Of a DNA stretch of 52,651 bases, positions 34,260-45,411 are shown one piece after another (the stretch's first letter is position 1; every line of letters begins with the position of its first letter). The stretch is from contig JAPMTS010000020.1 of assembly GCA_026552955.1 (NCBI GenBank), forward strand, positions 1 to 52,651. The letters run 5' to 3'. The notes beneath the pieces were generated by a model. That model ran no database searches. It was not told the DNA's origin and was given only the letters and a program-made list of their open reading frames with translations. This stretch comes from Candidatus Methanoperedens sp. GTDB lineage: Archaea > Halobacteriota > Methanosarcinia > Methanosarcinales > Methanoperedenaceae. A program made the translations under genes and the position numbers.

Positions 34260-34652
34260 ATGATAGATTATACCAGAGAGACAAAATTAAATGCAAAATC
34301 CGCAGTTGAAAAACTTACGGAGGACCTCAAAACAAACAAATGGGGGGTATTGAGTGTAATCGATGTTAAAAAGATCCTTTCAGAGAAATTGAACATTGAA
34401 TATGATGATTATTTTATCCTTGATGTCTGCAACCCGGGGCTTGCATATCAGGGTCTTCTGATAAATAAACAGGCGGGATTGATCCTGCCATGCAAGATAG
34501 TGGTTTATTCCGAGAAAGGAAAAACAAAGGTTTCATTATATAAGCCCACTGTTGCTTTGGGTACTGCAAGTTCGCTACCTGGATATGATAAACTGAGTAA
34601 CCTTGCTATTGAGGCGGAAGCGGGTTTAAAGAAAGTCATTGACCTTCAATAG
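34260..34652 (+). CDS. DUF302 protein
   Basis: The protein has 130 residues, the whole being a DUF302 domain (pattern VLSVIDVKKILSEKL then FILDVCNPGLAYQGL and ILPCKIVVY). The fold is known but not the activity; members often lie near redox or heme-related genes. AAGGAGG precedes the ATG, and a TATA-like stretch lies about 40 bp upstream, so a separate promoter may start the long cluster here. The next gene follows by 8 bp. Confidence 0.88.
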   Translation: MIDYTRETKLNAKSAVEKLTEDLKTNKWGVLSVIDVKKILSEKLNIEYDDYFILDVCNPGLAYQGLLINKQAGLILPCKIVVYSEKGKTKVSLYKPTVALGTASSLPGYDKLSNLAIEAEAGLKKVIDLQ

Positions 34653-34660
34653 GTGAAAAA

Positions 34661-35041
34661 GTGCAAACAATTGAAATAATGGAAAAAACCTTTGATTCTG
34701 AATCAAATGATATTGCCCTCTATCTTGCAATGTCTAAGAAAGCAGAAGACGAAGGACAAACCGAGATCGCAACTTACCTCTTTAATGTGGCAATGGATGA
34801 GGCAGCGCATGCCGCCCAATTTGCCACTCTCCTGGGAAAGGTTAAGGACACAAGGACGAATCTTGTAACTATGCTTGATGGAGAGATACGGGCAGAAAAG
34901 GACAAAGCCCATGCAGTAAAAGTGGCATTTGCCGAAGGAAATCAAGAGGTTTCCAGGTTTTTTGAGAAATCGATGCATGATGAAACAAGGCATAAGGAAG
35001 GAATAAAAAAGATTCTTTCAAAATTACAGGAAAAGGATTAA
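34661..35041 (+). CDS. Rubrerythrin-like ferritin-fold protein without rubredoxin domain
   Basis: The protein has 126 residues from a GTG with AGGTGA upstream. It forms a four-helix bundle with di-iron ligand motifs ESND, DEAAH, GEI..E and DETRH. True rubrerythrins have an added rubredoxin domain, missing here. Such proteins reduce hydrogen peroxide or handle iron. It sits between DUF302 and the AhpD-like gene in the same unit. Confidence 0.86.
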   Translation: MQTIEIMEKTFDSESNDIALYLAMSKKAEDEGQTEIATYLFNVAMDEAAHAAQFATLLGKVKDTRTNLVTMLDGEIRAEKDKAHAVKVAFAEGNQEVSRFFEKSMHDETRHKEGIKKILSKLQEKD

Positions 35042-35077
35042 ATAAACTCCAAACCAAGATACTATGGGAGAACAAAT

Positions 35078-35473
35078 ATGGAACCAAAGAAAATAATTGA
35101 TAGCATAGAAGGAAAAATGGGATTTACTCCTGAGATCATGAACATGATGGGGGAAATGAATCCTGAACTTTTTGCGCATTATAAGAAATGCGACGACGGG
35201 ATCCAGGAGGATGGCGCCCTTTCCGCAAAGGTGAAAGTATTGATGTCACTTGCCGTTGTGGCCTCCCAGAGATGTGAACCGTGCTGTGAATCACAGATGA
35301 GGAGCGCTCTCAATCATGGCGCAACAAAAGAAGAAATAATGGAAACAATGAATGTGGTTTTCATTACTTCAGGAGCGCCCGGGGTGGCAGCATGCAGGAG
35401 GGCGCTGAACCTTATGGAAGGCAAAGAAGAAGGCCATGGTCATGGCTGTATGGGCGGAAGAAGAAGACAGTAA
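35078..35473 (+). CDS. AhpD/carboxymuconolactone decarboxylase-like protein
   Basis: The protein has 131 residues with a central CMD domain and a CEPCC motif (Cys66, Cys69, Cys70). In AhpD the pattern is CxxCxxxH; here the histidine position is Gln73, so proton relay may differ. The C-terminus is His/Gly-rich. AhpD-like proteins are thiol-dependent peroxidase partners. GGGAG precedes the ATG. Position within the ferritin/McrC cluster supports an oxidative-stress role. Confidence 0.84.
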
Positions 35474-35531
35474 GCGATTGAAAACATATTCATTGATATA
35501 TCAATGAAATCCAATTAAATGGGAGGATAAA

Positions 35532-35951
35532 ATGAGCCAGAAAATAATCGATGCATTGAACAAAGACCGTGAAGGTGAATTGAGCGCGATAATACAATAT
35601 ATGAAACATCATTATGAGGGAGAGGGAATGGAAAGCCCGGCAATCCTTGAAATATTTAAATCTACTGCAAAGGATGAGATGGGACATGCTGAAAAGCTCG
35701 GTGAGAGGATCGTCTATCTTGGAGGGACCCCCACAAAGAAACCGGAACCTATCGTTGAGGGTGGGGACTTAAAGAAAATGGTCCAGGATGACCTGGCAAA
35801 GGAGAATGCAGCCATCAAACAGTATAAGGAACATATTAAACTTGCCATTGAGGAGAATGACCCCACAACAAGACTCATGCTTGAGGAGATCCTTTCGGAT
35901 GAGGAAGGTCACGCAGATACCTGGGAAACCACCCTTGGAATAAAGAAATAA
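35532..35951 (+). CDS. Bacterioferritin-like di-iron protein
   Basis: The protein has 139 residues forming a four-helix bundle with EGELSAI, DEMGH, KENAAI and DEEGH, the two ExxH pairs of the ferritin di-iron site. It probably oxidises and stores iron or scavenges peroxide. GGGAGG precedes the ATG. The stop is 2 bp before the ATG of mcrC, indicating one transcript. Confidence 0.87.
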   Translation: MSQKIIDALNKDREGELSAIIQYMKHHYEGEGMESPAILEIFKSTAKDEMGHAEKLGERIVYLGGTPTKKPEPIVEGGDLKKMVQDDLAKENAAIKQYKEHIKLAIEENDPTTRLMLEEILSDEEGHADTWETTLGIKK

Positions 35952-35953
35952 TC

Positions 35954-36631
35954 ATGTTCGGAAGAGAAACCCAGTTAGTGGATTGCAGGGAAGCCATGGG
36001 TCTGGGGCGCGGCGGGGGTCTTGCCCAGCGCGGAACCCTTTCTGAGGCTGCAAGACCTGATGTTGTGGCCATTGCCATGACCCCGGGCCGAAGGCATATC
36101 ACAAAACCCGTATGCGAGATAACGCAGGGGCTCAGGCGGGAAAGCATCCAGGTAAGCGTTCTTGTTCTTGAGGCAGGCGCCGGCATTCCTATGGATGATG
36201 TTGGAACTTCCACCATATCAAAAGGATATGGGGCAAATTTCGGTTTAACGGCAAAAGAAATCGAGCAGATTGCCCGGCACAAGGTTGTGCTGATCAACAT
36301 GGGAAATGTAAATTCCCATATACTGTCAAAAACAAAGAAGATCCTGAAATATATAAATATCCCTGCGGTAATAGCCTGTGAATACCCCATCGATTTTGAG
36401 GATTTCGCAAAAGTTGGGATCAAAACAAAATTCGTAAGACCCAAGAAGCCTGAAACAGAAGGCACTGTGGTCGCGATCGTCAGCGGAATAACCAGGGGTG
36501 AAACATGTTCAAGGATCAAATTGAATGAACTGGCAAAGGAAATCCGGCAGATACTGGGGCAGAAGATAGAAGCTACCCACGCTGTAAGAAGCGATTTGTT
36601 GATAAAAGAAGGACTTATGGCAGGAGAGTGA
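35954..36631 (+). CDS. mcrC: Methyl-coenzyme M reductase accessory protein McrC
   Basis: The protein has 225 residues. The start REMQ-like FGRETQLVDCREAMGLG and the following GGGLAQRGTLSEA, then TPGRRHITKPVCEI, are the conserved face of McrC. McrC belongs to the mcr operon in many methanogens and has been found in the complex that activates MCR by reducing its nickel cofactor F430. Here it lies away from mcrBGA, directly after a ferritin gene and before DUF2180 and 2-oxoacid oxidoreductase genes. The context suggests reactivation of MCR after oxidant exposure. The gene is intact. Confidence 0.93.
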   Translation: MFGRETQLVDCREAMGLGRGGGLAQRGTLSEAARPDVVAIAMTPGRRHITKPVCEITQGLRRESIQVSVLVLEAGAGIPMDDVGTSTISKGYGANFGLTAKEIEQIARHKVVLINMGNVNSHILSKTKKILKYINIPAVIACEYPIDFEDFAKVGIKTKFVRPKKPETEGTVVAIVSGITRGETCSRIKLNELAKEIRQILGQKIEATHAVRSDLLIKEGLMAGE

Positions 36632-36637
36632 TTAGTT

Positions 36638-36850
36638 ATGAAATGTTATGTTTGTGCCAAAATGGGTAAAGATACTGATGCAGTTGCGGTCTGTATCGTA
36701 TGCGGTATGGGTGTTTGCATGGAACATGCAATATATGAGACCACTCCTGTATGGAAAGGAGATTATCCGGTAAGGCTTGAAAAGGATATTGAGAACATGA
36801 AGCGTATAATGTGCCCTCCATGTCATGAGGCCATGAAGGAGAATTGGTGA
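36638..36850 (+). CDS. DUF2180 zinc-ribbon protein, copy 1
   Basis: The protein has 70 residues with cysteine pairs CYVC, CIVCGMGVC and CPPCH plus a histidine in MEHA. The pattern matches DUF2180, a short zinc-binding family of methanogens and relatives of unknown function. It begins 6 bp after mcrC. A GGAGAGTGA stretch at the mcrC stop may act as the ribosome binding site. Confidence 0.86.
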   Translation: MKCYVCAKMGKDTDAVAVCIVCGMGVCMEHAIYETTPVWKGDYPVRLEKDIENMKRIMCPPCHEAMKENW

Positions 36851-36855
36851 TCACT

Positions 36856-37077
36856 ATGTTGAGATGCTATCAATGTGCACAAAGTAATACTGTGGAAGAA
36901 TCCGTATCGATCTGTATAATGTGCGGCAAAGGGCTGTGTATGGAACATGCAAATAGGATTGACCTTCCCATCTGGGAAGGAGGATATCCGGCACCCGTCA
37001 GGATGCTTAAAAAAGGTCTTCCAAGATTTGTCTGCAGTGATTGTGGGAATATCCTTCTACCCGGATCCTGTGAATAG
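36856..37077 (+). CDS. DUF2180-like zinc-ribbon protein, copy 2
   Basis: The protein has 73 residues and resembles copy 1 (CYQCAQ, CIMCGKGLCMEHA, CSDCG). The ATG at 36856 is chosen, with GGTGATC overlapping the previous stop just upstream; a TTG at 36844 is in frame. The two copies are a tandem duplication that has diverged. Function unknown; the context is McrC and oxidoreductase genes. Confidence 0.82.
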   Translation: MLRCYQCAQSNTVEESVSICIMCGKGLCMEHANRIDLPIWEGGYPAPVRMLKKGLPRFVCSDCGNILLPGSCE

Positions 37078-37083
37078 AAAAAA

Positions 37084-37983
37084 ATGTTTGAAGTAAGATT
37101 TCACGGCCGGGGGGGGCAGGGAGCGGTCATGGCTGCCCAGACCCTGGCCGAAGCTGCGGTAAGTGAAGGAAATTATGCCGTAGCATTTCCTTATTTTGGT
37201 GCTGAAAGACGTGGTGCCCCGGTTCTTGCATTCACGCGTATAGATTCAAAAAAGATATTCAGCAAAACTCAGGTTTATGCTCCCGACTGCGTGGTGGTGC
37301 TTGATGATTCGCTCCTTGACACCATAGATGTTGTAGCAGGGTTAAAACCGAAGGGCATGGCAATTATTAACTCCAGGGAAAAACCCGAAGATATAGACCT
37401 TGGCAAGATAATCGACACGGCTACTGTCAATGCAACATCCATCGCGCTTGAGATCCTGAAGGCCCCAATTACAAATACTGCGATCCTGGGGGCATTTGCA
37501 AAAGCCACAGGAATTATCAAGATAGAATCCCTGGAAGAATCCATAAAGAGAAAATTCGGGGAAAAGCTGGGGGCAAAGGTGGGTGAGAGAAATGCGCTTG
37601 CAGCATGGACTGCCTATGAAAGGACGATTACAGGAAAAAGCAGGGGAGTAAAAAAGCTTGAAGCGAGGAAACAATGGCTGCCAACGCACCAGGAAATTCC
37701 CGTTGGAGGATGTCTTATTGAAGGTAAAACGGATGCAGGTCTTATCGGGCCCGGAAGTTTTATTGAGAATAAGGTTTCCGGATGGGCTACATACCGCCCT
37801 TTGAGGGATAAGGCAAAATGCACAATGTGCCTTCTATGCTGGTTCTACTGCCCTGAAGGGACCATCGTCAGGATTTCAGACCGGGGAGACCTTATGACAA
37901 ATTATGATTATTGCAAGGGGTGCGGCGTATGCGCCAATGAATGCCCGGTGGACGCCATAAAAATGGTGAGGGCGCGAATATGA
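37084..37983 (+). CDS. porGD: 2-oxoacid:ferredoxin oxidoreductase, gamma-delta fusion
   Basis: The protein has 299 residues. Residues 1-175 are the gamma subunit ([14 protein letters not shown]). The C-terminal part from about 225 is a ferredoxin-like delta subunit with two 4Fe-4S motifs, [11 protein letters not shown] and [11 protein letters not shown]. With A and B it forms the complete pyruvate (or similar 2-oxoacid) oxidoreductase, which makes or uses reduced ferredoxin. Gamma and delta are often separate; the fusion occurs in some lineages. The stop overlaps the alpha ATG by 4 bp. Confidence 0.92.
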
Positions 37984-39152
37984 AGAAAGTAATAACAGGT
38001 GACCATGCTGTTGCGATCGGTGCTAAACTCTGCCGCGTTGAGGTCGTACCTGCTTTCCCGATAACGCCGCAGACGCTAATAATAGAACACATTGCGGATT
38101 TTGTAAGTGATGGTGACCTTGATGCAAAATTTCTTACCATGGAATCGGAACACAGCGTAATGAGCGCCGCAGCTGGGGCATCTGCTGCAGGTGCCAGGGT
38201 TTTCACTGCAACATCTTCCCAGGGACTTGCATTCATGCATGAGATGCTCTATGCTACAGCACCGCTACGCCTTCCGGTTGTCATGGCAAACGCTAGCCGT
38301 ACGCTTGGGGGACCTCCCGGTATATGGTGTGAATACAATGATTCAATGGGTGCACGGGACTCGGGATGGCTTCAGCTTTATGTGGAAGACAACCAGGAGG
38401 CTCTGGATATGGTGATCCAGTCTTTCAGGATCGCAGAAGACAAACGGGTTCTTCTTCCCGTGATGCCCTGTCTTGACGGTTTTGTGCTTACTCATACTGT
38501 TGAACCGGTGGATATACCTGAGCAGGAAGAAGTTGATTCATTTCTTTTGCCTTATGAACCTGATATCATTCTTGATCCGAAAAGACCCGCAATGATCGGG
38601 ACTTTCATGCCTTCGGAATATATCATGGAATTACGAAGACAGACTGCAGGGGCTTTCGAATCCGCAAAAGAAGTGATCAGGCAGATAAATAGTGAATTTG
38701 CACAAAAATTCGGAAGGGATTATGGAGGTCTAATTGATACATACATGATGGAAGATGCACATACCGCATTGATCACAATGGGAACAGTTACAAGTACATC
38801 CCGTGAAGTGGTTGATGAATTGAGACGAAAAGGAGAAAAAGTGGGTCTAATCAAGCTTCGTTTTTTCAGGCCATTTCCATCGAATGAATTGAAAAAAGCA
38901 GTATCACATATAAGCGCCCTGGGTGTTTTTGACCGCTCAATTTCCTATCATGGAGGAGGGCCGGTCTATAATGAGGTTCGCTCGGCTCTGTATGGAATGA
39001 CGATGCCTGTTATCAACCATCTTGCAGGCATCGGAGGACGCGATGTGACAAAGGAGCAGATAATGAAAATGTTCGAGTTGACACAAAAAGCTGGAAAAGG
39101 TGAAAAAGTGAATGATATCTCCTGGCATAATACGCGGGGTGAAACAAATTGA
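37980..39152 (+). CDS. porA: 2-oxoacid:ferredoxin oxidoreductase, alpha subunit
   Basis: The protein has 390 residues from the ATG at 37980 overlapping the porGD stop (ATGA); the longer frame from 37941 runs inside porGD. Typical stretches are [11 protein letters not shown], the [14 protein letters not shown] motif of the TPP half-site, and [13 protein letters not shown]. Length and order fit pyruvate:ferredoxin oxidoreductase alpha. The exact 2-oxoacid cannot be fixed from sequence alone, though pyruvate is most likely. Confidence 0.92.
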
Positions 39153-40111
39153 TCACCATCAAGGAACTTTCCGATGATAATCTTTTCACGGCAGGACATA
39201 CCGCATGCCCAGGATGCGGTGTTGCCATGTCCATACGCAATGCGATACGTGTTCTTGGAAAAGATACCGTAGTATATGTTCCCGCAAGCTGTGCGGTGGT
39301 ATTTGGCACAACATTCCCCTATGGCGCCTGGAAAGTGCCATTTTTCCATACCGCTTTTGAAAATACGGGAGCCTGCCTGTCGGGTATGCAGGCGGCTTTT
39401 GAAAAGAAGGGGAAAAAAGTAACGGTCGTGGGCTTTGCAGGGGATGGAGGTACGTATGATATCGGTTTGCAGAGTATGTCGGGTGCGGCAGAGCGTAATG
39501 ATGATGTCCTCTATATTTGTCTTGATAATGAGGCATATATGAATACAGGGATACAGCGAAGCGGCGGAACACCTTTTGGAGCGTGGACTACGACTACGCC
39601 GGTTGGTAATGTTGTGCAGGGAAACAGGCGCTTTAAGAAAAATCTCGGCGATATTGTTGCAGCACATGAAATTCCGTATTATGCTACGCTTTCCATCGGG
39701 CAGCCTCTTGATTTCATAAGAAAAGTGGAGAAGGCAAAAAATATGCGGGGTTTTCGTTTCCTTCATATGTTCACTCCCTGCATACCGGGCTGGAAGATGG
39801 ACCCGGCAAAGACAGTCGAAGTCACAAAAAGGGCTGTACAAAGCGGTATGTGGACGCTTTACGAGATAGAGAATGGCGATAAAAGGATCACTTACAAGCC
39901 CGGAAAAATGAAATCCGTAAAAGATTACCTGATGATGCAGGGCCGATTCAGGCACATGAGCGAAGAGGACATAAAGAAGCTGCAGATGTGGGTATGCAAG
40001 AAATGGAACCTTCATTATAAGGAGAAAGGAGCGCCGGATGTATGTGAGATCCTGCCACCCGTTGAACATCATGCAGTCACAGAAGAACACAGGGAGATGC
40101 ACGGACCATGA
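39149..40111 (+). CDS. porB: 2-oxoacid:ferredoxin oxidoreductase, beta subunit
   Basis: The protein has 320 residues from a TTG overlapping the alpha stop, with GGGGTGA just upstream. Cluster cysteines are seen in CPGCG and further on. The thiamine diphosphate and Mg motif is GDGGTYDIG with NEAYMNTGIQRSG after it. The beta subunit holds the cofactor and catalyses decarboxylation. Its stop overlaps the glutaredoxin ATG by 4 bp, so thiol-redox genes are part of the same transcript. Confidence 0.94.
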   Translation: MITIKELSDDNLFTAGHTACPGCGVAMSIRNAIRVLGKDTVVYVPASCAVVFGTTFPYGAWKVPFFHTAFENTGACLSGMQAAFEKKGKKVTVVGFAGDGGTYDIGLQSMSGAAERNDDVLYICLDNEAYMNTGIQRSGGTPFGAWTTTTPVGNVVQGNRRFKKNLGDIVAAHEIPYYATLSIGQPLDFIRKVEKAKNMRGFRFLHMFTPCIPGWKMDPAKTVEVTKRAVQSGMWTLYEIENGDKRITYKPGKMKSVKDYLMMQGRFRHMSEEDIKKLQMWVCKKWNLHYKEKGAPDVCEILPPVEHHAVTEEHREMHGP

Positions 40112-40365
40112 GTACAAAAATCAAACCCAGGCTTTACACACTGAGCACATGCGTTCATTGCAGCGCATTGAAACGGTTCCTGGTAGAGAACGGGATAGAA
40201 TATGACTATGTTGATGTAGATAAAATACATGGAAAAGAAAAACAGGATATACTTTCCGAAATGACGAAAATCACCGGAGACATGAGATTCCCGACCATAG
40301 TAATAGGTAAAAAGATCATTGTTGGTTTCTATGAAGATAAAGTAAGAGAGGCGCTTGGTCTATGA
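40108..40365 (+). CDS. Glutaredoxin-like protein
   Basis: The protein has 85 residues with a thioredoxin fold and the redox motif CVHC near residue 16, and a cis-proline in RFPTIVIG. It would reduce protein disulfides or bind a cofactor. It overlaps porB before it and the disulfide reductase after it by 4 bp each, which points to electron flow from ferredoxin through the reductase to this protein. Confidence 0.9.
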   Translation: MSTKIKPRLYTLSTCVHCSALKRFLVENGIEYDYVDVDKIHGKEKQDILSEMTKITGDMRFPTIVIGKKIIVGFYEDKVREALGL

Positions 40366-40859
40366 GAACAATTGAAGAGATGTTCGAGGAGATGAAAAAG
40401 ATAGCACAGGAGGAGGGTTACAGGTTCACTCCAAATAAGGTTGAACTCCAGGATATCCTCCAGGGCATGTGGGACAACGAGCATCGTTATGGTTATCCAT
40501 CCTGTCCCTGCCGTCTTGCAAGCGGCGTGCTTGCCGATGATATGGATATAATCTGCCCGTGCAATTACCGGGATGCCGATATCACAGAGTATGGAAGCTG
40601 CCTGTGTACGCTGTATGTGAATGATGAATGGATATCAGGCAGAAAAGTGCATGGTGTTGTTCCCGAGCGTCGGCCACAGGAATATTATATTAAGGGTTAT
40701 CCGAGCATCAAAGAACAGAAAGGCGCAGGAGGTGGAGAGATGGTAGAAGTTTACAGGTGCCAGGTTTGCGGTTATCTATGCGCAAGGGAAGAGGCGCCGG
40801 ATCTGTGTCCTATTTGCAGGGCAAAGAAGGAACGGTTCGAGAAGTTCAAGGTGCGTTAA
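40362..40859 (+). CDS. Ferredoxin:disulfide reductase catalytic protein fused to rubredoxin
   Basis: The protein has 165 residues. Residues 1-105 are the ferredoxin-thioredoxin reductase catalytic domain with CPC (48-50), CPC (65-67) and CLC (80-82), which hold the 4Fe-4S cluster and active disulfide. Residues 130-160 are a rubredoxin-like domain (Cys133, 136, 149, 152). Similar fusions are known from Methanosarcina. It uses ferredoxin electrons to reduce thiols; the adjacent glutaredoxin is the likely substrate. Confidence 0.92.
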   Translation: MRTIEEMFEEMKKIAQEEGYRFTPNKVELQDILQGMWDNEHRYGYPSCPCRLASGVLADDMDIICPCNYRDADITEYGSCLCTLYVNDEWISGRKVHGVVPERRPQEYYIKGYPSIKEQKGAGGGEMVEVYRCQVCGYLCAREEAPDLCPICRAKKERFEKFKVR

Positions 40860-43506: not shown

Positions 43507-45411
43507 ATGGTGGAAGTTTTCTCTCGAATAAAGTTCGGTATAGGATTATTGACTATTTTAATTGCATCCGGTTTATTCATACCTGGAGTTTTTGGAACAT
43601 CTCCGAATGATGTCTGTTTCGATAGTGGATGTCATGATTCCACAAGTCAAAAACCAATTGACATTTCGCTTTATAATTCCAATCCCCACAGCATTATCGA
43701 ATGTATTGATTGCCATGAACCTTCTATTGATCCTGTAAATGATGGCGATCATGGTAAATTCATTCGACAATTGAATGGAACTAATATTACAGGGCCATTA
43801 ACGACGAAATATTATTCTCAAAATTTTTCTCTGTGTTATGCCTGTCATAATGAGTCAAACGTAATAGGGGTTTTGAATAATTATAATATGTCAAGTCATC
43901 ACCAGAATAGTAAAACTGTAGTTTCGAGTATAGGCACGAATTTTATAAATAATCTCTCAGCAGGTTATTACAATGGAAGCAGGGACTATCCCACAAATAT
44001 TCATTGGAATCATCTGGATGATTTTGGGAGTCTTTATGGTAGTCCTCGTGGGCAATTCGACTCGGATAAAGATGGAATAATAGATTCATACCAGTCCTGC
44101 CCTGCCTGTCATGATGTCCATGGTACAGACTATCCAAAGATGACAAAAAATAGCATGGCGATTTCTTATGGTTCTAATGAATATGGTATCTTTGGAAATA
44201 TAGGTAGTAGAGAATTTTTAGATCCAGGACCAGGATTTATTTGTGAAGGTTGCCATGAAGCTGGCCAAAAATATTACAGAAATGAAATAAATCTATTTGA
44301 AGATTGCATTTCATGTCATATAGACGGTATGCCCGGGGATGTGAATGCAGCTGCTTTCGGTCAGGGAGTACATATTAATATCAATACATCCGGTGACGGA
44401 CTAAATAATAACGACTGCTGGACATGCCACTATAACAGGGATATGAACAGGACCAATATCAGGACATGCGAAGACTGCCACGTCAGCGGAATATCTCTAC
44501 CTGCCCCGGTAATAAGAACACATTTGTCCGGTGTTACGAATTATTCCTGTACGGATTGTCACAGCAAAGTCATTGCAGATCCGGGCGAAGGCATTTTAAA
44601 TATAACATCCCATTACCTGAAAAGACCCGTTATATCAAGCATAAATTATTGTGATTATTGCCATGGACCAAATGCGAATGAATTATTTCAGGCAAAGAAC
44701 AAGACCATCAATGAATTCAATCATGATGATAGGAACTGGGATGGAACTACAACATGCAGGACATGCCATTCAAATTCCAGCGTGACGGCGGATCCACTGG
44801 CCGGCGATAGTTCTTCGTTCCATGACCTGACTACAGAATTGGGGGATGTGTTCAATGGAACGCCAGCTACAATAGCGAATTGTGTTCTTTGCCATACACA
44901 AAAAGATGAAAGATTTGTGCTCGCTCCAACTCCTCCAATATCACATCCGGATACTATTGGCATGACGCCTTCGGATTGCTCTGTTTGTCATGGTGATAAC
45001 AGGCACAATGTTGCAGGAAGCTGCATCAATTGCCACTCAATCAATACAACAAGATATTATGTGAATACAAGCCTATTCGCAAGACATAAAAATGTAAATA
45101 AGAGCGATGGTCCGGATAATATTACAGATGATGATTGTAAGACATGTCACTTCAATAGTTCAATGCCTATGGATCTTGGCGCTGCAAATTATAATAATAC
45201 CTATTTCTGCCAGGACTGCCATACTGATACAGGCAGAAATCAGGGGCAATATAATAGCATCACAGATGAAATCCTGAAGAAGGCCCCAATGCCGCCTGGA
45301 CATGGACAAAATAGCTGCGCACAATGCCATATCCCCGGATTTGACAAAGAAAGGCCACTAACAGAAAAAGTCCGATATCATACACATGGTCCAGCAGGTT
45401 TTGTAGAATAA
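43507..45411 (+). CDS. Secreted multiheme c-type cytochrome, 16 CxxCH motifs
   Basis: The protein has 634 residues with a signal peptide (about 1-30). It has sixteen CxxCH motifs and one wider CFDSGCH motif (CX4CH) near residue 37, which could bind a seventeenth heme. There are many possible N-glycosylation sites (N-x-S/T). No C-terminal anchor or sorting tail is seen, unlike the cytochrome at 334-1281. It probably carries electrons outside the membrane. AGGTGA precedes the ATG, and a TATA-like TTTATTAAAT lies about 55 bp upstream. Confidence 0.93.
   Translation: MVEVFSRIKFGIGLLTILIASGLFIPGVFGTSPNDVCFDSGCHDSTSQKPIDISLYNSNPHSIIECIDCHEPSIDPVNDGDHGKFIRQLNGTNITGPLTTKYYSQNFSLCYACHNESNVIGVLNNYNMSSHHQNSKTVVSSIGTNFINNLSAGYYNGSRDYPTNIHWNHLDDFGSLYGSPRGQFDSDKDGIIDSYQSCPACHDVHGTDYPKMTKNSMAISYGSNEYGIFGNIGSREFLDPGPGFICEGCHEAGQKYYRNEINLFEDCISCHIDGMPGDVNAAAFGQGVHININTSGDGLNNNDCWTCHYNRDMNRTNIRTCEDCHVSGISLPAPVIRTHLSGVTNYSCTDCHSKVIADPGEGILNITSHYLKRPVISSINYCDYCHGPNANELFQAKNKTINEFNHDDRNWDGTTTCRTCHSNSSVTADPLAGDSSSFHDLTTELGDVFNGTPATIANCVLCHTQKDERFVLAPTPPISHPDTIGMTPSDCSVCHGDNRHNVAGSCINCHSINTTRYYVNTSLFARHKNVNKSDGPDNITDDDCKTCHFNSSMPMDLGAANYNNTYFCQDCHTDTGRNQGQYNSITDEILKKAPMPPGHGQNSCAQCHIPGFDKERPLTEKVRYHTHGPAGFVE

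Follow-up and report, generated by a model that had tools for sequence, protein, structure and literature searches.

Five genes follow one another on the + strand between positions 34260 and 36631 of the window, the whole stretch of 52,651 nucleotides that was analysed, which is carried by a 2.48 Mb, 95%-complete genome of Candidatus Methanoperedens (G000). Open reading frames and profile matches identify a DUF302 protein (34260..34652; PF03625, 68 bits), a short rubrerythrin-type diiron four-helix protein that starts with GTG and lacks a rubredoxin domain (34661..35041; PF02915, 53 bits), an AhpD/carboxymuconolactone-decarboxylase-type protein with a CxxC (CEPC) motif (35078..35473; PF02627, 60.6 bits), a mini-bacterioferritin (mini-Bfr) of 139 aa (35532..35951; PF00210) and McrC, the FeS-cluster-carrying subunit of the MCR activation complex (35954..36631). 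An earlier note on this DNA had named the same five genes, and the profile matches bear out their coordinates and strand; the 2-bp gap claimed between ferritin and mcrC is exact, the ferritin stop being at 35951 and the mcrC start at 35954. The 3' limit of 36631 was set too early, since the unit extends on the same strand to 40859.

Downstream of mcrC come DUF2180a, a small zinc-finger protein with an invariant Cys/His set (36638..36850; PF09947, 111 bits), and its tandem paralogue DUF2180b (36856..37077; PF09947, 90 bits). These are followed by a four-subunit 2-oxoacid:ferredoxin oxidoreductase (POR), made up of a gamma-delta fusion (37084..37983; TIGR02175 and TIGR02179 above cut-off), an alpha subunit (37980..39152; PF01855, PF17147; NF040682 below cut-off), the ATG of which overlaps the preceding stop by 4 nt, and a beta subunit with a long C-terminus that is nearest to PorB models, below cut-off (39149..40111). 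Gamma also scores above the PRK08534 cut-off; alpha and beta stay below their own equivalog cut-offs. This POR is the second of the genome, a family-specific paralogue; a canonical one is encoded elsewhere in nearly every genome (at G000:C37 in this one). The unit ends with a glutaredoxin/NrdH-type protein (40108..40365; TIGR02196, 56 bits, below cut-off) and a putative disulfide reductase of the ferredoxin:disulfide reductase type (FDR; 40362..40859), in which an FTR catalytic-type domain and a rubredoxin domain are fused (PF02943 and PF21349, both above cut-off). The last four junctions are 4-nt overlaps. Outside the conserved unit, 3' of LemA/DUF2207 genes, the window also encodes a large multihaem c-type cytochrome (43507-45411).

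McrC and its activation partners

The window protein is a true McrC, encoded by the sole mcrC of G000. It scores 291.8 bits against the TIGR03264 equivalog, whose curated cut-off is 213.5, and alignment to chain I of PDB 8s7v finds the ligands C12, H49, C55 and H118 all kept. In the cryo-EM structure of the complex these residues bind two FeS clusters, McrC being the subunit that carries them (PMC12176620). The mcr operon was checked for a second mcrC, as the earlier note had proposed, and holds none; the only other PF04609 match in G000 is Mmp7 and was rejected as a second functional copy. The operon is ordered mcrB-D-G-A, with a 55-bp gap between D and G at the usual place of mcrC, and the same order recurs in another 11 complete mcr loci of Methanoperedens. 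Encoding within mcrBDCGA is usual for mcrC, though not defining for the protein, and the window gene lies outside it. The genes for Mmp7, Mmp17, Mmp15, Mmp5, Mmp6, Mmp3 and A2 are intact and grouped at one other locus of G000, so that mcrC alone of the activation set sits in the defence unit.

Several observations were made beside these mcr genes. A DUF2098 gene lies directly 5' of mcrB, on the same strand, in Methanoperedens (L134:856-1191, L133:815-1123, L140:7912-8220), although mcrC, which encodes its binding partner, is outside the operon. DUF2098 is a small McrC-binding protein in the cryo-EM activation complex. In two GoM-Arc1-type genomes (family f4) McrC is fused C-terminally to a DUF2098 domain (L059:8442-9230, L060:8093-8881), and the mcr operon reads B-G-A, without C or D. 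At L138:1007-3648 (G006), mcrA is followed by mcrG, in reversed order and without mcrB or mcrD, near a transposase-like ORF, possibly as an extra mcr copy. At L035:1-3400 (G001), the end of mcrA is found some 2.5 kb 5' of mcrC, and the AhpD gene is preceded by a regulator-like gene together with a transposase-like ORF.

McrC also carries a clade-specific C-terminal tail (KIEATHAVRSDLLIKEGLMAGE; 36563..36628). The C-terminus reads HAVRSDLLIxEGLMA in the genus Methanoperedens and in genus g2, where all 27 sequences share H, RSDLLI and EG, and it is absent from the McrC of ANME-2a/c, Methanothrix, Methanosarcinaceae and genus g3; no second copy occurs within G000. The tail probably arose after the relocation of mcrC and may dock a partner. 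In a structure model of McrC the N-terminus and loops are of low confidence and the tail is uninformative.

Conservation and origin of the mcrC neighbourhood

The earlier note had also asked whether the linkage of these genes is conserved. A survey of 30 Methanoperedenaceae mcrC loci, in which each count covers only contigs that are long enough, finds the block common to three genera, in the order (DUF302)-(rubrerythrin)-AhpD-(mini-Bfr)-mcrC-DUF2180a-DUF2180b-(POR)-glutaredoxin-FDR, the genes in brackets being optional. On the downstream side, DUF2180a is present in 29/30 loci, DUF2180b in 28/30, POR gamma-delta in 27/29, and glutaredoxin and FDR in all (26/26 and 25/25); upstream, AhpD is found in 25/26, mini-Bfr in 24/26, rubrerythrin in 19/26 and DUF302, the optional first gene, in 11/25. 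Such conservation of the neighbourhood far exceeds chance, and it stops at the edges of the block: the flanks are scrambled, with the next gene upstream kept in 1/25 loci and the next gene downstream in 0/24. In genus g2 (L050, L051) there is no mini-Bfr between AhpD and mcrC. At the loci of M. nitroreducens ANME-2d and a near relative (L186, L187) the unit has no POR genes, which leaves mcrC-DUF2180a-DUF2180b-glutaredoxin-FDR. Genus g3 has mcrC-DUF2180a-b-POR-glutaredoxin-FDR, as far as the contig end. Since mini-Bfr is missing in g2 and POR in the M. nitroreducens type strain, the only constant partners of mcrC are DUF2180, glutaredoxin and FDR. One genome (G003) has a second FDR copy, 77% identical, which is located apart from mcrC and comes after a glutaredoxin-like ORF and a Rieske-type ORF (L147:7377-9282).

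In the McrC tree the Methanoperedenaceae form one clade (support 97/97) with g3 basal, which is most simply explained by a single relocation that preceded the divergence of the genera. Horizontal replacement of McrC finds no support, as this clade stands among ANME-2 and Methanothrix sequences. The receiving module is older. The tandem DUF2180 pair is present in sister families whose mcrC remains in mcrBDCGA: in Methanosarcinaceae-type genomes DUF2180a-b is followed by AhpD, a multihaem cytochrome and a flavoprotein, and in ANME-2a-type genomes it is preceded by FTR-type and rubredoxin-type genes and lies beside a flavodiiron protein and a rubrerythrin, mcrC being in neither cluster. It follows that mcrC joined an existing redox-defence module. 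The family names given to genomes here rest in part on their matches to contigs of named organisms. As for DUF2180 itself, its structure model is of fair confidence and shows weak zinc-finger similarities, with no significant match in the PDB (best E 0.2), and a search of mainly open literature found no published work on DUF2180, or on a Methanoperedens oxygen response with rubrerythrin.

Displacement of mcrC is not confined to this family. In Methanotrichaceae (L210-L256) the gene left the mcr operon independently and lies by apgM and/or dph5 in nearly all genomes, and in GoM-Arc1-type genomes it stands beside unrelated genes; a convergent linkage of mcrC with defence genes was found in neither. 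The genes apgM and dph5 have no obvious role in MCR function. As the Methanotrichaceae linkage to these housekeeping genes is equally stable, stable linkage alone is no proof of a shared function.

The probable mini-Bfr-mcrC promoter

Between the AhpD and mini-Bfr genes lies a palindrome, TTCATTGAT-NN-ATCAATGA, which in the window reads TTCATTGATATATCAATGAA (35489..35508). It is found with at most 3 mismatches in 20/25 loci (0 mismatches in 13, 1 in 4, 2-3 in 3), so that 17/25 have 0-1 mismatch, and it is absent from the other 5; simple shuffles of the same stretches give 3-6 mismatches at best. Genera g2 and g3 lack it. In most cases the palindrome begins 35-50 bp ahead of the mini-Bfr ATG, and often it stands some 16 bp past a TATA-like box, so that it should cover the start of transcription; several loci have an additional half-site. 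A genome-wide regulon search of G000 returned this site alone at up to 2 mismatches. Perfect palindromes occur in seven genomes, once in each and always at the mini-Bfr-mcrC promoter, the site in G009 lying on a contig end that is unjoined. By its pattern of conservation the palindrome is a phylogenetic footprint for a putative dedicated regulator, and we propose it as the operator of mini-Bfr-mcrC. It may instead act as an RNA hairpin, but the stability of the predicted stem does not clearly exceed that of shuffles, and there is no T-run. The mcrC gene is without a clear ribosome-binding site, and at nearly all loci it starts 1-5 bp past the ferritin stop or overlaps it slightly, as expected for translational coupling. 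It is likely that mcrC is co-transcribed and co-regulated with mini-Bfr and the downstream redox genes.

McrC supply and the redox/iron-defence genes

The clusters of McrC are of the nitrogenase type, which oxidants should destroy, and MCR itself drops into inactive Ni(II)/Ni(III) states. A unit that answers both would remove oxidants, handle iron, restore thiols and supply McrC. Under the reading that we prefer, the ancestor of the Methanoperedenaceae would have moved mcrC once from mcrBDCGA into an existing module (AhpD, DUF2180 pair, glutaredoxin-FDR). A single transcript, under a dedicated regulator sensing iron or redox state, would span mini-Bfr, mcrC and what lies downstream. Rubrerythrin and AhpD would remove oxidants, mini-Bfr would hold or supply iron, and thiols would be restored from reduced ferredoxin along POR, FDR and glutaredoxin. 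Fresh McrC would then be supplied to the Mmp7/Mmp17/Mmp3/A2 machinery, encoded elsewhere, which would re-reduce F430.

The placement of the gene suggests, but does not prove, that the switching-on of MCR is tied to iron or oxygen stress, and it is plausible, as the best explanation and with a probability of about 0.5, that the unit helps to restore MCR or to keep it active under oxidant or iron stress. Against this reading count the equally stable linkage in Methanotrichaceae, the small set of constant partners, the loci that lack the palindrome, and the fall of a mini-Bfr ortholog under salt stress that is cited below. The earlier note had proposed that the unit protects and reactivates MCR after exposure to oxygen or nitrogen oxides. 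Co-expression of McrC with an iron- and oxidant-defence set is well supported, by the kept linkage and by the redox neighbours in sister families; protection or reactivation as such we infer, and the unit contains no NO-specific gene. A more specific form is possible and put forward tentatively: oxidant or iron stress would act through a private regulator at the palindrome to switch on mini-Bfr, McrC and the DUF2180/FDR module together, and an activase subunit carrying a new docking tail would thereby be dosed separately from MCR.

It is rather unlikely, though in keeping with the repeated displacement of mcrC in Methanotrichaceae, GoM-Arc1-type genomes and ANME-1 (the last as recorded in PMC9081873), that the gene landed by chance in an operon whose steady transcription gave the right dose, and was kept there since breaking a coupled operon is harmful, with no functional tie to oxidant defence. 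The receiving module is one of redox defence in sister families too, and in the genus Methanoperedens the mini-Bfr placed directly upstream, the 2-bp spacing and the conserved palindrome point to rebuilt regulation and not to mere inheritance. The redox nature of the module, the adjoining mini-Bfr and the conserved operator also make the Methanoperedens case stronger than that of Methanothrix.

Two further readings give the neighbours a direct part in activation. Ferredoxin has been suggested as reductant of the activation complex, and POR, glutaredoxin and FDR lie directly downstream with 4-nt overlaps; POR-reduced ferredoxin, FDR and glutaredoxin might thus form its physiological reductant chain, with McrC encoded here as the electron receiver. 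This appears improbable, as the canonical POR is the only one in M. nitroreducens ANME-2d and its relative, and the glutaredoxin-FDR pair occurs without mcrC in ANME-2a-type genomes. Alternatively, mini-Bfr, which lies immediately 5' of mcrC at most loci, might store the iron from which to build the three [8Fe-9S-C]-type clusters (24 Fe) of the complex, under control by iron and not by oxidants. McrC carries these clusters, and the haem of bacterioferritin has been proposed to aid iron release; but the g2 locus does without mini-Bfr, no cluster-building gene such as nifB lies within the unit, and the remaining neighbours are peroxide and thiol proteins, which makes this reading improbable as well.

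If restoring or sustaining MCR is indeed the role of the unit, the locus addresses the question of how MCR is kept up outside strictly anoxic methanogens. Methanoperedens is exposed to nitrate, to nitrite and to oxygen in traces. The locus links an MCR activase subunit to a ferritin of known crystal structure and to DUF2180, offers the palindrome, DUF2180, FDR and the McrC tail as candidates for MCR activation or protection, and gives a possible regulatory reason for the departure of mcrC from the mcr operon in ANME-2d.

That mcrC lies outside the mcr operon had been reported for ANME-2d (ANME2D_00875) and ANME-1, and the ANME-2d case is the same phenomenon and very probably the same locus as the one described here; in its accessible part, that review gives only the location elsewhere, and does not describe the neighbourhood, its conservation, the operator or the mini-Bfr link (PMC9081873). 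Of the conserved neighbourhood, the operator, the McrC tail and the tie to mini-Bfr, no published account was found in a search of mainly open literature. The mcrC unit has DUF2180a-b and AhpD or FTR-type genes in common with the redox-defence clusters of sister families, but those clusters are without mcrC, mini-Bfr, the family-specific POR and the palindrome.

The ferritin of the unit has a close counterpart in Mper-mBfr, crystallised in 2026 from 'Ca. M. carboxydivorans' as a naturally abundant, redox-active 12-mer with coproheme and with ferritin activity in vitro; its role is speculative according to the authors, and the sole expression change reported, cited in the same paper, is a fall of a highly expressed mini-Bfr ortholog under salt stress (PMC13168243). 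The window protein, a short Bfr-like chain with the ferroxidase residues, the haem Met and Arg13 present, is identical to it at 126/139 positions (PDB 9qq4), and in 'Ca. M. carboxydivorans' BLZ2 the ORF that ends 2 bp before mcrC encodes the crystallised protein itself (139/139). The terms 'mcr', 'methyl-coenzyme' and 'operon' do not occur in the main text of that paper.

Lastly, the canonical McrC of the mcrBDCGA operon (Methanococcus maripaludis, PDB 8s7v; PMC12176620) belongs to the same family above the equivalog cut-off and shares the four FeS ligands. Methanoperedens McrC differs from it in being encoded outside the mcr operon with other operon partners, in its conserved C-terminal tail, and in five extra residues in the loop equivalent to the one that contacts McrA.
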